A stretch of 64,000 nucleotides of DNA, taken from an uncultured Bacteroidia bacterium. Lineage in GTDB: Bacteria; Bacteroidota; Bacteroidia; Bacteroidales; UBA932. The position numbers and the translations under genes are program-made. The DNA lies in assembly GCA_902789445.1 (NCBI GenBank), contig CADAOB010000006.1, positions 1-64,000 on the forward strand. The letters run 5' to 3'. The notes beneath the pieces are model-generated. The model was not told the origin of the DNA. It did not search any database and was given only the letters and a program-made list of their open reading frames with translations. Shown here one piece after another: positions 27,840 to 54,286 of this stretch (position 1 is its first letter; the number at the start of each line of letters is the position of its first letter).

Positions 27840-28028
27840 CTCCCCAGGGAAAGCTATGCTCCCCGGGATATTCCGGACGAGGTTCCGTGCGGAAATCCCG
27901 GTCAGGATTCCGGGCTGAGGTCCCAGACGGGCCGTGCTGCTTCCATGGAACGCCCTTACGCTCCTCCTCCCGCCCCCTCTCCCGCTCACCCTGGCGCGGA
28001 AACCACTGGTTATCAAGTGATTAAATGG

Positions 28029-28058
28029 TTCCCCTATACGGTTTTCCGCATAGGGGAA
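28029..28058 (+). repeat. REP hairpin 1a of RAYT module 1
   Basis: TTCCCCTAT-A-CGG-TTTT-CCG-C-ATAGGGGAA: 9 plus 3 base pairs with one A/C mismatch that gives the repeat an orientation. Confidence 0.75.
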
Positions 28059-28193
28059 TTACATATTATGCTTACTGATAGACAATTAGCCGCCATGAGC
28101 CAAAGATATGTCGATCTTAGGCATTCCGCACAATTCCATCCACGCCCATCCCCGGGAATGGCATTTAATCTACTGATTATTAAAAACTTAACC

Positions 28194-28227
28194 AAAATAC
28201 CTATACGGTTACCCGTATAGGCATTTT
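28194..28227 (+). repeat. REP hairpin 1b of RAYT module 1
   Basis: A 15-bp arm AAAATACCTATACGG, loop TTAC, and complementary arm with one A/C mismatch. Its CCTAT begins 167 bases after that of hairpin 1a. Confidence 0.75.
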
Positions 28228-28294
28228 CGATAAACAGTTTGTAATCTGATACTTATGTGCCAGCCATCAAAAAAGGCAGAGGTTAAGGCGGAGG

Positions 28295-29218
28295 TTAAGG
28301 CGGCGGCAGATGAAAAAACTTGGCTATTTGGAACCAGGGTGCCCTGGTTTTACGCGCAACGGTAACAGCGATTCGCTTCCGTTCTCCTTCCTCCAGGAAG
28401 AAAATGTCTTTGATGTTCGAAATCGGATAATGTTCCAGCAGGTATTTTGTTATTGTCTGATAGATTGCGTCAGATTCTTTGTGATGAACTTCCCTTACGT
28501 CATATTCGCTGCCGGTCGTCGTATTGAATGCCGTAACCATTGCATTGTAACTCCCGAAGTATTTGATAACCTCGGGATAGTCGATACAATTGTATTGTTG
28601 GATGGTATAATCAGTCAACTGTCTTTTCTCCATTGCGGTCAGCGGTTTTGTCATCCGTTCAATAAGCGCGTAGTTCAGCGGAATATCCTGTTCCCGGTTG
28701 ATTCGGATCAATTGCATCGCTTTCCGCATAGGCCGCCTCGCCTTTGCGGAATCAATCGGTGCTGAGAAAGGAGCATTCCGGATGGCATATTGAAGGAAAT
28801 TCCATTGCCCACTTTCTACATCATCCGCCAACTGTTTTTCTACCAAATTGTTGTAGAGATAGGCAATGGCAAAACGGCTCTTTTTGTCTGTCGTTTTGAC
28901 AGCACTTCCGAAAGAATGGCGAAAAAACTGGCCTTTGCGGTTTACCGTTGGATTGTAAAGCAGGACAAAGCGGGAAGTATAGTAACACACAAACTGGCTG
29001 AGATCCTGCTTTCGTTCCGCGATTGCCAGAATATGAACATGATCTGGCATCAGGCATACGCCCAGTATCTTGACATTGTATTTTCGGGCAGCTATGGATA
29101 GTAAAGAAAAGAATACCAGATAGTCTCTGACCGAATAAAAGATAAGACAACCATCTACCGTATTTTGATAGATATGTTGGATGGTACCAACCTTGAAGAT
29201 CCGTTCGCTCCCTCTCAT
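28295..29218 (-). mobile_element. RAYT 1: REP-associated tyrosine transposase with HTH tail
   Basis: 307 residues of the Y1 (IS200-like/TnpA_REP) family, single-strand DNA transposases that nick with a tyrosine. The HUH motif is MPDHVHIL (His60, His62); the conserved AIAYLYNN (Tyr120/Tyr122) is the probable nucleophile region. It is about twice as long as IS200 transposase: the extra C-terminal 150 residues include DAIYQTITKYLLEHYPIS and end with APWFQIAKFFHLP, like a DnaA-type HTH. AT-rich compared with neighbours. Promoter TATCTTTG is at 29268-29275 (minus). Clear paralog of the transposase at 51.6 kb. Two REP hairpins lie on each side. Confidence 0.88.
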
Positions 29219-29267
29219 AATCTGTCATCACAATAAAGATGTTCAGGCGGCACTATTGCCTAAAGTG

Positions 29268-29275
29268 CAAAGATA
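29268..29275 (-). promoter_or_regulatory. -7 box of RAYT 1
   Basis: TATCTTTG on the minus strand, about 50 bases upstream of the transposase start. Confidence 0.55.
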
Positions 29276-29362
29276 ATATGCGGAACTGCCGTTTTGCAAA
29301 TTTATTTACTATTTTTTTTGCCTCGGCAGGTATTGCTCTGATATATAACCTATTGCTCGCTT

Positions 29363-29388
29363 TCCCTATACGGTTCCTCGCATAGGGA
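29363..29388 (+). repeat. REP hairpin 1c of RAYT module 1
   Basis: TCCCTAT-A-CG-N6-CG-C-ATAGGGA; same orientation and same A/C mismatch as hairpin 1a. Confidence 0.72.
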
Positions 29389-29527
29389 TTCAAGTTAGTA
29401 AACTGATGCTGGGAAAGCTATGCGCCAAAGGCTGCTTTGACCGGCTGATCAGTCGTATTATCGTGATTATGGAGATCACGAAGCGTATAGCAGCCAGACG
29501 GCTGATAATCAACGGATCACAAGAAAC

Positions 29528-29551
29528 GCCTATACGATCCATCGCATAGGC
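29528..29551 (+). repeat. REP hairpin 1d of RAYT module 1
   Basis: GCCTAT-A-CGAT-CC-ATCG-C-ATAGGC; its CCTAT begins 164 bases after that of 1c, mirroring the 167-base spacing of 1a and 1b. Confidence 0.72.
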
Positions 29552-29711
29552 AGTTACGAAAAGTGACTAATAGCGAGTAACTTGATTGTCAAGCGGCCAT
29601 GTAAACATTACGGAGCATCTGGCGAGTTAAAGGGTTTCGGTACGAAGAAGCGAGGTATGCACCGTTGAGATGCCCGGTCAAGCCGTGCATGACGGCATGA
29701 GCATGAGGGAG

Positions 29712-50304: not shown

Positions 50305-51224
50305 CGCGCAACCTCCTCTCTTTTAGGCCGCGGGGCCATGAACAGGAACAGGCACAAGGCGCCGCAGAGCATCATCAGGATGCCTGCCAGCACGAAAGGC
50401 TGCCAGGGATCGCGGACCAGTTCCAGGACGCTGATCCGGCTTTCGGGCCCGGCCTGTGCATCGTAATCATATTGGTAGATCGTCCAGCCGGCAGCCTTCA
50501 GGGGCTTGTTTACCTCGATGACGGCATCGCAGACCTTGCCCTCGCGGTCAAACAAGGTGATTTCGGAGGCGAAGCGTTTGGGCATCTGCATCCGGGCACC
50601 CGGCTGGAGCGGATAGAGTTCCATGATAAAATCGTGCAATTCGACGGAAATCCCGGGTGTGTGGACCGCGCCGTCCGCGTCCTCGGCCGTCGTGGCAAGC
50701 GTACCTTCGGTGACTGTCATGAAAAGATCCTGCCTGTCGGGCGAGCCCAGGGCGCCGCAGACCAAGGCCAGAAACAGGCCGGCATGATTGAGCAGGAACG
50801 GAATCTCCCGCAGGCGGAACAGCAGCAGGTGCTTGACCGAGACCAGCCCCAAAAGCGTCAGCAGCCAGGCATAGCTCAGCACGAAAGGCCAGAAATCCAG
50901 CATCCGGGAAAGCCAGGGGATGCCGCCTCCCTCCCCGCTTTGCCGCACCAGCCCCAGTACAAGGGTCAGGCCCAGACAGTAGCAGAGGGCCGGGACAGCC
51001 GCCTCCAATCGAAGCATCCACGCAACAAAGCGCAGCCTGCTGCGGAAAGCCAGCAGCAGCACGAGCAGCAACAGGAACAACGCGAGCAGCACCGCATTGA
51101 CCGGAAAGGCCAGGCGCGCCCAGGGAAAAGGGCCGGCGCAGGCCTGCAGCAGGATGCCTGCCGCCAAGATTCCGCCCCCGAGAAGGAAACCTGCCAAAAA
51201 CCCGTGATTCTCCTTGCGTTCCAT
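50301..51224 (-). CDS. ResB-like cytochrome c biogenesis protein
   Basis: 307 residues from the ATG at 51224. Several N-terminal membrane helices, then a periplasmic domain (GISVELHDFIMELYP, GWTIYQYDYDAQAGPES) and a last helix (FVLAGILMMLCGALCLFLF), as in ResB/Ccs1. The common N-terminal part is shorter than full-length ResB. Promoter TATCTTTG on the minus strand (51233-51240). No cytochrome c gene such as nrfA is next to it in this window. Confidence 0.82.
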   Translation of the reverse strand: MERKENHGFLAGFLLGGGILAAGILLQACAGPFPWARLAFPVNAVLLALFLLLLVLLLAFRSRLRFVAWMLRLEAAVPALCYCLGLTLVLGLVRQSGEGGGIPWLSRMLDFWPFVLSYAWLLTLLGLVSVKHLLLFRLREIPFLLNHAGLFLALVCGALGSPDRQDLFMTVTEGTLATTAEDADGAVHTPGISVELHDFIMELYPLQPGARMQMPKRFASEITLFDREGKVCDAVIEVNKPLKAAGWTIYQYDYDAQAGPESRISVLELVRDPWQPFVLAGILMMLCGALCLFLFMAPRPKREEVAR

Positions 51225-51381
51225 CGATTGGACAAAGATAAGTCGTTTGCGACTTAATTCCAAAAAAAGTGACGACAAGGATGGCGACGGCCGGGGCGAT
51301 GGTGGGGCGCCAGCCGAGACGCCGCGATGGAAGGGCGCTGGCATGAACAATGGCAGGTCCGACAGCCGGGCACCAGAGGAG

Positions 51382-51492
51382 CGCTGGAGATTAAATCGAT
51401 GGTTATTAGCAACTTACGTAATCCTGCCCCACTTGCCAGAGGGCGGGCAGGATTGCATAAGATACTACATAACAGCGCTTTAACCTCCAGCG
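51382..51492. repeat. REP palindrome 2a, 111-bp imperfect palindrome
   Basis: Outer arms CGCTGGAGATTAAA (51382-51395) and its complement with one mismatch (51479-51492), 24-base spacers that pair at about 15 of 24 positions, and a core hairpin: AATCCTGCCC (51420-51429) and GGGCAGGATT (51445-51454) around GCC-AGAG-GGC. All centred on 51437. Confidence 0.78.
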
Positions 51493-51581
51493 GCCGCCGA
51501 TCAGCCCGTGGCTTGGCTGTCGCATGAGATGGAATGACTGTTTTTTCGCAATTATATTTGGAAACAGGGCGTATCTGATAT

Positions 51582-51589
51582 TATCTTTG
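51582..51589 (+). promoter_or_regulatory. -7 box of RAYT 2
   Basis: TATCTTTG, 27 bases before the ATG; TTTG at 51557-51560 may be the -33 element. Confidence 0.55.
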
Positions 51590-51616
51590 TAAAAACAAAA
51601 TGATCATCGAAACGAT

Positions 51617-52567
51617 ATGAGGGGAAGGATTTCTTTTCGGCAGGGAGCCATTCAGCACATTTATCAGAATACGGTCGACGGCGTCTTGATCTTTTATTCC
51701 GTGCGGGACTTCCTGGTTTTCTTTACGACTTTTGCGACCGTATCCCGCCACTACGATATCCGCATTCTGGGTATCTGTCTGATGTTCGACCACATTCATC
51801 TCCTGGTCGAAGCGCGGAACAAGGCCTGCCTGGACCGCTTCGTCAGCCACTATACCAGCTGGTTTGTCCGGCAATACAACGAATGGTATGGCCTGAAGGG
51901 GTCTCTGTTCAATCGCGCGTATGGCTTGGCTTCCAAGGTGTCTGACAAAGACATCCGCAGCGCCATCGCGTATCTTTACAACAATCCGGTAGAGCGTCGC
52001 TTATGCCTGAGGGCGGAGCAGTCCCGCTGGAATTTTCTTGCTTTTGGCGAGCGTCCATACCCGTTTTCATCACCTATACGGCTGGACAAGGCCCGGGCTC
52101 CGATGCGCCGGGCGGTGGAAGAGGTCAAGATCAGCCGTAAAGATGAGCGGCCTCTGAATTATGCCCAGCTCAAGCGGATCACACGCCATCTGACGCCCGC
52201 AGAGCAGCAGCAGTTGACGGATTTCGCCATCTCGACTTACAATTGCATTGATTATCAGGATTTAATCTATCGTTTTGATGACTACGGTTCCCTGCTGACT
52301 GCCCTCTCGACAACAACTGGAAGTGAGCATGGCCTGAAGGAAACTTTTGTAGGCCGTTCAGACAAGATATACCAGCAGATGACCACTTTTCTGCTGGAAT
52401 CTCACTGCATTTCCAATCCGGACGATCTGCTCCGAATGCCGCTTGAAAAACGGCGTGAACTGTTCGAACCACTTTGGATCTGGTCCGGTGTAAGCCGACG
52501 CCAGGTTGAGAAATACCTTCATCTGCCCGAGGGGGCTGGAGGCCAAATTACTGACAATCAAAGATAA
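51617..52567 (+). mobile_element. RAYT 2: REP-associated tyrosine transposase with HTH tail
   Basis: 316 residues, paralog of RAYT 1 over its whole length (shared IQHIYQNTVDG and FYSVRD near the start). HUH motif MFDHIHLLVEA (His59, His61); probable nucleophile in AIAYLYNNPVERRL (Tyr119/Tyr121), the RAYT-type segment. C-terminal half with DKIYQQMTTFLLE and GVSRRQVEKYLHLP is an HTH-like tail. Flanked at both ends by 109-bp palindromic repeats; the downstream one begins inside the gene, so the last 11 codons form part of its left arm. Confidence 0.88.
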
Positions 52568-52643
52568 GCGCAATCCTGCCCTACTCGCCGAAGGGAGGGC
52601 TGGATCCAGCAAATCGCTACTGATCAGCTGGTTACCCTCCAGC
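52535..52643. repeat. REP palindrome 2b, overlapping the RAYT 2 stop
   Basis: Outer arms GCTGGAGG (52535-52542) and CCTCCAGC (52636-52643); core AATCCTGCCC (52572-52581) with GGGCTGGATC (52597-52606). Length and arm spacing equal those of 2a without a gap; about 63 % identical by hand count, same orientation. Confidence 0.75.
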
Positions 52644-52733
52644 GGGCGAAAATGGCAGTTGTCTGCCGAAAGAAACGTTTGCTCCGAAACTGCAAAAAAA
52701 AGGACATCTTGGAAAAGATCACGATTCTTTCAT

Positions 52734-52741
52734 TAATTTTG
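52734..52741 (+). promoter_or_regulatory. -7 box of the GH3-GlsA-GlsB operon
   Basis: TAATTTTG, 21 bases before the ATG at 52763; it supports that start over an upstream in-frame ATG at 52652. Confidence 0.55.
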
Positions 52742-52762
52742 TGGTTTATACAGAATCACGCC

Positions 52763-54286
52763 ATGAGTTTGACCAAGATTGTCCGGCTGGCTTTCGTACC
52801 GCGGCAGAAGGAACTGGCCCGGCAGGCCCGGGAGGGCGCTCCGGTGCAGCAGAAGATGCTCCGCTACCTGACAGATCAGGCGCGCAACACCGAATTCGGC
52901 CGTCGTTACGGACTGCCGGAGGTGCGCACATACGAAGATTTTGCCGCACGGGTGCCCCTCCATACCTACGAGGAGCTCAAGCAGGACATCGACCGGATGC
53001 GCCACGGCGCGGATGACATTCTCTGGCCCGGCCGCGTGAAATGGTACGCCAAATCATCGGGTACGACCGCCGACAAGTCGAAATTCATTCCCGTCAGCCG
53101 GGAAGGCCTGCAGAAAGCGCATTACCGGGGCGGATTCGATTCGCTGGCCTACTACCTGCAGAACCATCCGGAAAGCCGCATCTTCGACGGCAAGGCCCTC
53201 ATCCTGGGCGGCAGCCACGCGCCGAACTTCAATGTCAAGGATTCGCTGGTCGGCGACGTGAGCGCCATCATGCTCGAGAACATCAACCCGATTGCCAATC
53301 TGGTCCGTATCCCGAAGAAAGAGACGGCGCTGATCAGCGACTTCGAAATCAAGCGCGACCGCATCGCCCGCGAGACGATGAATCAGAACGTGACCAACAT
53401 CAGCGGCGTACCCTCGTGGATGATGTCGGTGCTCGAGCGCGTGATGGAACTCTCCGGCAAGACGCATCTCGAAGAAGTCTGGCCCAATCTGGAAGTCTTT
53501 TTCCACGGCGGTGTGGCCTTCACGCCCTACCGCAGCCAGTACGAGCGGCTGATCACCTCGCCGAAGATGCACTACATGGAGACCTACAACGCCAGCGAAG
53601 GCTTCTTCGGCCTGCAGGACGATCCGGCCGACCCGGCGTTGCGCCTGACGCTCGACTACGGCATCTTCTACGAATTCATCCCGATGAATGCGTTCGGCCG
53701 TACAAATCCGACCGTCGTCCCGCTCTGGGGTGTCGAGACGGGACAGAATTACGCGATGGTGATCTCCACCTGCTGCGGACTGTGGCGCTACATCATCGGC
53801 GACACCGTGCGTTTCACCGCGAAGGATCCTTACAAATTCGTGATTACCGGCCGCACAAAACAGTTCATCAACGCCTTCGGCGAGGAACTCATTGTGGACA
53901 ATGCCGAACAGGGGCTGGCCTTCGCCTGCCGCGAGACGGGAGCCGAAGTGCTGGAGTACACCGCCGCGCCCGTGTATATGGACGAGGCGGGGCACTGCCG
54001 TCACCAGTGGGTCATCGAATTCTCGAAGGAACCCGCCGACCTGCTGCGTTTTACAGCACTGCTGGACAAGCGCTTGCAAACCCTCAACAGCGACTACGAA
54101 GCCAAGCGCTTCAAAGACATCACGCTCCAGCAGCTCGAAATCGTACCGGCCCGGCGCGGCCTGTTCAAAGACTGGATGCGCCAGCGGGGCAAACTGGGCG
54201 GCCAGCACAAAGTGCCCCGCCTGAGCAACACGCGCGACTACATAGACCAGCTGCTAACCCTCAACCAGGAAAACCATGCCCGTTAA
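52763..54286 (+). CDS. GH3 family acyl-acid amido synthetase-like protein
   Basis: 507 residues from the ATG at 52763. GH3 enzymes adenylate a carboxylic acid and join it to an amino acid. The adenylation motifs are present: YAKSSGTTADKSKFIPVS, the central MHYMETYNASEGFFGLQDD, and YIIGDTVRF with ITGRTKQFINAFGEEL. Length is typical of the bacterial branch. It overlaps the next gene by 11 bases, so the enzyme is tied to the acyltransferase pair that follows. The natural substrates are unknown; an amino acid and a fatty acid are an inference. Confidence 0.87.
   Translation: MSLTKIVRLAFVPRQKELARQAREGAPVQQKMLRYLTDQARNTEFGRRYGLPEVRTYEDFAARVPLHTYEELKQDIDRMRHGADDILWPGRVKWYAKSSGTTADKSKFIPVSREGLQKAHYRGGFDSLAYYLQNHPESRIFDGKALILGGSHAPNFNVKDSLVGDVSAIMLENINPIANLVRIPKKETALISDFEIKRDRIARETMNQNVTNISGVPSWMMSVLERVMELSGKTHLEEVWPNLEVFFHGGVAFTPYRSQYERLITSPKMHYMETYNASEGFFGLQDDPADPALRLTLDYGIFYEFIPMNAFGRTNPTVVPLWGVETGQNYAMVISTCCGLWRYIIGDTVRFTAKDPYKFVITGRTKQFINAFGEELIVDNAEQGLAFACRETGAEVLEYTAAPVYMDEAGHCRHQWVIEFSKEPADLLRFTALLDKRLQTLNSDYEAKRFKDITLQQLEIVPARRGLFKDWMRQRGKLGGQHKVPRLSNTRDYIDQLLTLNQENHAR

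Follow-up and report, generated by a model that had tools for sequence, protein, structure and literature searches.

Foldback elements of about 110 nt and their RAYT-type transposases in an uncultured Bacteroidales bacterium, a probable REPIN-like family without a conserved GTAG head

Several described systems couple a tyrosine transposase to palindromic repeats. REPINs, whose inter-REP spacing in SBW25 is 71 or 110 bp, are extragenic inverted doublets that form one hairpin and are linked to specific RAYTs (Bertels & Rainey 2011, PMC3116915). The elements described here share these properties, but their halves are not the GT[AG]G-headed REP hairpins of that account, and in the present family two separate stems covary, whereas the middle motifs are conserved without covariation. 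In the REP-rayt-REP arrangement (Nunvar et al. 2010, PMC2817692), the Y1 gene is bracketed by over-represented, co-evolving palindromes, as it is here, although the palindromes described there are short, carry GT(A/G)G heads and come from gammaproteobacteria. The E. coli TnpAREP REPtron (structure 4er8; Corneloup et al. 2021, PMC8266576) resembles the present system in fold, HUH/Y chemistry, an imperfect palindrome with unpaired features and the co-evolution of enzyme and repeat, but GTAG is required there and not conserved here.

Two further systems are close. TnpAY1 subclass 2.6, corresponding to Bertels group 5, is described as mostly from Bacteroidetes, with 'atypical secondary structures', the motifs NH[LIV]H, WQ and YIH[QN]NP and a median length of 179 aa (Quentin et al. 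2018, PMC6006769). The phylum is the same, and in both cases non-canonical structures that also occur elsewhere in the genome stand on either side of a RAYT-like gene, a likeness drawn from the wording of that paper's text; compared by eye, the transposases described here (DHIH, YLYNNP, ~290–316 aa) differ from the published motifs and length. TIRtrons, or TIRYTs, combine a tyrosine transposase with long flanking repeats, some palindromic, in dispersed families, as here; the GGGGWSAS motif that some of them share is missing from our palindrome consensus (PMC3733652), and 20 of 26 TIRYTs fall into subclass 2.1 (PMC6006769). Since REPINs, TIRYTs with self-complementary TIRs and subclass 2.6 are all close, the present system is best read as a variant within the known REP/RAYT kind that does without GTAG, not as a new kind. 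It is distinguished by having no conserved GT[AG]G head, by two covarying stems and by a longer transposase with DHIH and YLYNNP motifs. Among the papers listed by searches of an open-access library, none deals with this repeat in Bacteroidales or with REPIN inversion.

The locus, module 2, was analysed within a window of 64 kb, i.e. the whole 64,000-nt stretch of DNA. The initial annotation had described two palindromes flanking a transposase gene, and its coordinates proved exact: palindrome 2a lies upstream at 51383–51491 and palindrome 2b downstream at 52535–52643, neither having a strand, with a RAYT-type gene of 316 aa between them (51617–52567, plus strand) whose final codons and TAA stop overlap 2b. 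The ungapped alignment at about 63% identity (69/109 positions), the shared core AATCCTGCCC, the ends GCTGGAG and CCTCCAGC and the arm spacing likewise agree with that description. As claimed, both are imperfect palindromes. When every stretch of 109 nt in the 64 kb (63,892 in all) is ranked by self-complementarity, they come first and second (76/109 positions for 2a and 64/109 for 2b, compared with 58 for the third). The two match each other best, 2b being the top ungapped partner of 2a outside itself (69 positions; runner-up 47). At ~110 nt, the unit is indeed longer than a standard REP, and it is not of the GT[AG]G type.

Assigned by covariation in the family, the foot stem of 2a pairs 51383–51394 with 51480–51491 (11/12 Watson–Crick), and its core stem pairs the left arm AATCCTGCCCCACTT at 51420–51434 with 51440–51454 (12/15). 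Between them lie a left middle motif (51399–51409, consensus position CTGATnnTCAG), conserved in the family but not covarying, and, from the family alignment, a right one (51465–51475, consensus position CTGATnnnCAG). In 2b the corresponding foot arms are 52535–52546 and 52632–52643 (10/12 pairs) and the core arms 52572–52586 and 52592–52606 (10/15). Folding of both copies had been proposed as a check. As single-stranded DNA, 2a is predicted to fold at −26.7 kcal/mol, far from chance (z −6.9; 0/200 shuffles equally good), with 15/25 positions of its middle complementary and much of the middle paired. For 2b the outcome is modest (−18.1 kcal/mol, z −2.4; 3/200 shuffles equally good), indicating a weaker hairpin, and its predicted fold departs from that of 2a in the middle. 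The covariance model R1, which had both copies in its training set, scores 2a at 75.5 bits and 2b at 72.0 bits. The anticipated compensatory changes between the two copies were not found: 0/27 foot and core stem pairs are doubly changed, and the three double changes all fall in the middle zone, which lacks covariation family-wide. The covariation support comes from relatives, not from the 2a/2b pair.

These relatives are drawn from 57 RAYT loci, comprising the genome's own four and 53 from a scan of genome contigs, in which 80 stretches matched the pattern and 53 were confirmed. The 316-aa protein matches the Y1_Tnp domain at 32.5 bits (E 1e-7), above the cut-off of 23. Its score with the NCBIfam RAYT model NF047646, 41.2 bits, is below the 80-bit cut-off and counts against the REPIN-like reading with cognate RAYTs; with the IS200 model NF033573 it reaches 17.3 bits against a cut-off of 55. 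In alignment A3, covering 55 of the 57 loci (the truncated L024 and L056 were left out), Y1_Tnp and NCBIfam REP_Tyr_transpos each match 55/55 proteins at E ≤ 0.01, and H59, H61 and Y119 are invariant, giving an HUH motif and a single catalytic tyrosine. The AF2 model (pLDDT 91.9) is helical after residue 160. Its best Foldseek match in the PDB, and the sole hit below 0.001, is 4er8 (chain A, E 8.8e-4), the E. coli REP transposase TnpAREP on a REP hairpin, followed by IS200/IS605 transposases; the E. coli enzyme differs in being a 165-aa chain with no long C-terminal domain. A WQ motif precedes the tyrosine in RAYTs; in the transposases here that segment seems, from an unaligned comparison, to read GxLF instead. 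At E ≤ 1e-30, the gene family is found in 17 of the 149 genomes, counting the own one, that represent the host's family, and in 0/246 further genomes sampled from its order. In viral contigs, eight stretches fit a pattern and none proved a relative.

The three other RAYT genes of the own genome are 40–47% identical to that of module 2, implying that they are no recent copies of one gene; no near-identical multicopy mobile gene unit of the IS200/IS605 type was found. One of them (47% identical; 28298–29218, minus strand, stop codon excluded) belongs to module 1 (27987–29596), where four elements with a different, CCTATACGG-type core stand two per side of the gene. The first, at 27987–28100, has a core of CCTATACGG/CCGTATAGG type, and R1 places the others at 28154–28267, 29319–29432 and 29483–29596.

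A palindrome search showed locus-specific cores recurring on both sides of many RAYT genes. We aligned 67 palindromes from related RAYT loci nearly gap-free (alignment A2, leaving out L006, L014, L039, L048, L055, L057, own4 and six chance palindromes). Each unit consists of a foot stem, a middle zone, a core stem and a loop, followed by the mirror image. The feet are of the types CTGGAGG.., GTGGC.., CTGCAAC.. and TTGGCGG.., and the middle zone spans 25 bases per side with conserved TGAT..TCAG and TTAC/GTAA motifs. Foot and core covary with a score of 0.699 across the 67 palindromes (0.211 ± 0.011 when shuffled, ≤0.173 when slid), and RNAalifold predicts both of these stems with a single stray pair besides. 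As the palindromes were selected by core pairing, that pairing is in part a product of the selection; foot pairing was no requirement. In 48 solo copies outside the R1 training set the score is 0.373, compared with 0.167 shuffled and ≤0.159 slid, indicating, as had been predicted, that pairing is kept under mutation in RAYT-linked and solo copies alike. Covariation is missing from the 25 columns of the middle zone (0.213 versus 0.211 shuffled), and a conserved helix with the arms paired over all 109 bp is therefore not supported; that 56.3% of middle-zone cells can pair (≤42.5% when slid) can be attributed to the mirrored motifs. Small CTGA..TCAG side hairpins, which might make each half a REP hairpin, gain no clear support: the dyad is conserved, with pairing about equal to column expectation.

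A canonical REP head is not conserved, which counts against the REPIN-like reading. GTGG occurs at the foot in 51/228 RAYT-locus arms and 5/96 solo-copy arms, GTAG in 0/228 and 0/96, and the unit measures ~110 nt compared with a 20–40 nt hairpin. That the main family has a fixed polarity found no support (12 CT versus 8 TC when oriented by the loop), and we claim no excess of mixed CGGAC/TGTAC arms (20/35 mixed, ~16 expected).

Dispersed solo copies had been predicted, and they exist, with at least 48 in the own genome and many in relatives. At E ≤ 10, R1 gives at least 113 strand matches in the own genome, corresponding to 56 full-length places and one partial (E 2.2); these counts are lower bounds, as 150 of 303 candidates were scored. 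Among the at least 56 full-length copies, eight flank RAYTs and at least 48 lie away from all four. With 56/57 places covering the full model length and with the stems covarying, the inverted doublet forms one hairpin and is dispersed as a unit, as in REPINs. The flanks of solo copies are unrelated, conservation being near background ~5 nt beyond the feet. Most of the 48 listed solos (35) carry the CTGCAA foot of the RAYT on own contig C1, a sister family and not module 2, which counts against the REPIN-like reading. The remaining 13, sorted by hand on foot and core, comprise six with a CTGGA foot (module-2-like), four with a CCTATAC core (module 1) and three closest to elements at RAYTs in other genomes (L028/L029). 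The six CTGGA-foot copies are 55–66% identical to 2a/2b, and a single listed solo, C33:19120, is closer to module 2 than to any other RAYT locus. The solo copies thus bear out the prediction for this kind of element and do so sparingly for module 2, whose own family is small or old. For the RAYT on own contig C16, an exact core pattern located four extra solo places, with 0 hits for the reversed control.

Copies follow the transposase across the genus. A RAYT is found at E ≤ 1e-20 in 23 of 40 genomes, and R1 copies (E ≤ 1e-4) occur in 23/23 genomes with it versus 4/17 without it (Fisher p 2e-7); an earlier 36-genome set gave 16/16 versus 4/20 chosen RAYT-negative genomes. Genomes with the RAYT carry from 5 to at least 93 strand matches, and R1 was trained in part on copies from some of them; the informative part of the comparison is the zero count in 13 RAYT-negative congeners, several RAYT-negative MAGs being incomplete (51–96%). 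The four exceptions are G401 (68 strand matches), G052 (35), G419 (8) and G092 (2). When eight RAYT-negative genomes were searched at E ≤ 1e-5, weaker matches that stop by residue 158 of the model appeared in five (G052, G092, G080, G003 and G014), indicating that other RAYT-like genes exist there. Judging from these matches, another RAYT could serve G052, G092, G003 and G014. The many copies in G401 and G052, which have no RAYT at E ≤ 1e-20, count against a REPIN-like reading; they may be orphaned populations, or accompany an unassembled RAYT, or, in G052, be served by the weaker RAYT-like genes.

The repeat also varies with the enzyme. On the RAYT tree, the foot class changes five times, compared with a minimum of 15 and a mean of 20.3 in shuffles (44/55 rows). 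Mantel correlations with protein identity over 50 loci are 0.54 for the core and 0.61 for the foot (0/2000 permutations each). The non-covarying middle zone, taken as a control, is also positive (r 0.41), suggesting that shared descent contributes to the core and foot correlations. From these sequence comparisons, the enzyme and the repeat seem to co-evolve.

The existence of the unit with its pair of covarying stems, the dispersal of copies, the co-occurrence and co-evolution with RAYTs and the conserved catalytic residues and fold are probably best explained if non-autonomous single-strand elements form a REPIN-like population and cognate RAYTs serve them. Each ~110-nt palindrome would be one unit of such a family. 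A single strand, exposed on the lagging-strand template or in a cruciform, would fold into an outer foot, a motif-bearing middle and an inner core stem, and the flanking RAYT, as an HUH endonuclease with one catalytic tyrosine, would recognise its own family's foot and core, nick at or near the foot and join the folded strand to another site. In the course of evolution, such events would seed solo copies sharing the foot and core code of the RAYT, while at least some RAYT genes would remain as long-term residents bracketed by copies instead of hopping frequently. Recognition by the module 2 RAYT, its cleavage position and mobilisation as a single strand are inferred, and the enzyme may recognise the whole unit as one structure.

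Two related genomes, G103 and G420, which are ~97% identical over compared stretches, show what happens to individual copies. Of 27 elements in G420, 18 are matched in G103 by an element whose flanks are collinear (17 plus the pair 110828/94859); the inversion count leaves aside the other nine, which have been rearranged, lie at contig ends, are less similar or are uncovered. Neither an empty site nor an excision turned up among the 27, and with 18 collinear counterparts recent jumping has no support in this pair. Three of the 18 comparable copies stand inverted at their original site. In C9:29400 the whole element is turned round (30 differences falling to 9 after inversion), in C3:78102 the core or loop (differences from 9 to 2) and in C4:110588 the loop or core (from 7 to 2). 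No inversion is seen in an additional pair, L006 3950/L007 3950, which falls under the listing threshold in G420. One G420 element is chimeric: its left half derives from one G103 element and its right half from another ~8 kb away, and the two halves meet in the identical core. In G103 (contig C37), the stretch L223 365–8249 holds ~8 kb with five predicted ORFs and two bounding elements; it is absent from G420, where the matching position has a single chimeric element. Synteny is lost at the edge of or inside G420 elements in L154/L180 and L160/L196, and in the RAYT locus pairs L019/L057, L021/L022 and L028/L038 a break or an inversion coincides with an element or falls within it. A 1.2-kb element-bearing 'insertion' in L188 was rejected, as it reads as a tandem duplication: at L188 3172–4366 (G420 contig C4) a coding sequence and its element are apparently duplicated. 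The unaligned stretches in L168 and L182 are masked N.

The in-place inversion and fusion of copies are seen in MAGs, and assembly error at palindromes must therefore be excluded. We consider it rather unlikely that the foldback unit, besides being a mobile element, is also an actively processed recombination site that can invert. In that case, the RAYT or a junction resolvase would cut the extruded structure and reseal it on the spot, the loop, the core or the whole unit would flip, and pairs of units would fuse, with deletion or capture of the intervening DNA.

The arrangement of the loci bears on whether palindrome, gene and palindrome move together as one conventional transposon, a TIRtron, with the solo copies as deletion remnants. 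At 43/57 RAYT loci there is an R1 element less than 1 kb away on either side of the gene, which favours such a transposon; elements lie on both sides at any distance within the available flanks at 45/57, and on at least one side at 53/57; eight loci are one-sided, some of them ending at contig ends. Four loci (L039, L054, L055 and the own C16 locus) have no R1 element, and at L039 and C16 there are ACAGAAAG-type palindromes that R1 misses. At the C16 locus (L004 1100–1500 and 2520–2680), at least five palindromes with the ACAGAAAG core crowd the RAYT, to all of which R1 is blind, and some are without a symmetric second half. At module 2 too, the RAYT gene is flanked by genome-repeated palindromes, the repeated copies being few and diverged. 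Its neighbours, a ResB-like and a GH3-like gene, have no match in the available flanks of the other 56 loci (flanks of at least 2.9 kb on both sides at 36/57), suggesting that this locus moved or was rearranged, as a TIRtron might. The CTGCAA clade points the other way: a convergent phosphatase-like gene adjoins the RAYT in 10/10 of its loci, indicating a resident RAYT, and is absent from the available flanks of the other 47. As a fixed neighbour it was set aside as a transposon passenger. On own contig C1 this gene (L005 872–1333, starting MTKILFICLGNICRSP), which we take to be low-molecular-weight phosphatase-like, lies between the RAYT and the downstream element. With the own-genome paralogues at 40–47% identity giving no sign of recent copies, and with solo places that are full-length single units (although R1 favours such hits), movement as a TIRtron appears improbable.

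Still less probable is that the palindromes are host-owned structural sites, such as terminators, mRNA-stability or chromosome-architecture hairpins, which a RAYT merely adjoins. In a rough ORF call, 20 of the 48 listed solos lie between convergent genes, as such sites might, the rest being tandem (14), divergent (3), ORF-spanned (5) or unassigned (6). However, copy presence tracks the RAYT, the foot class follows the RAYT tree, many main-family copies have T's before and A's after them with no 3′ T-run, and Rfam returned no family for 51001–53000 of the window at E ≤ 1. Self-propagating recombination hot spots, driven by homologous recombination and palindrome instability beside a dead or incidental RAYT, could produce the in-place inversions, the 8-kb presence/absence joined through identical cores and the losses of synteny at or inside elements, but would explain neither the dispersed copies with unrelated flanks nor their dependence on a RAYT with conserved catalytic residues, and we regard them as highly improbable.

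For the family, the REPIN-like reading describes a RAYT subfamily whose repeat is split by covariation into an enzyme-specific foot and core and shared middle motifs, with several enzyme/repeat pairs coexisting in one genome. Owing to these separable parts and multiple pairs, RAYT recognition and movement become testable by part swaps. The in-place inversions, if they are no assembly artefacts, would be traces of hairpin or cruciform processing in living cells.
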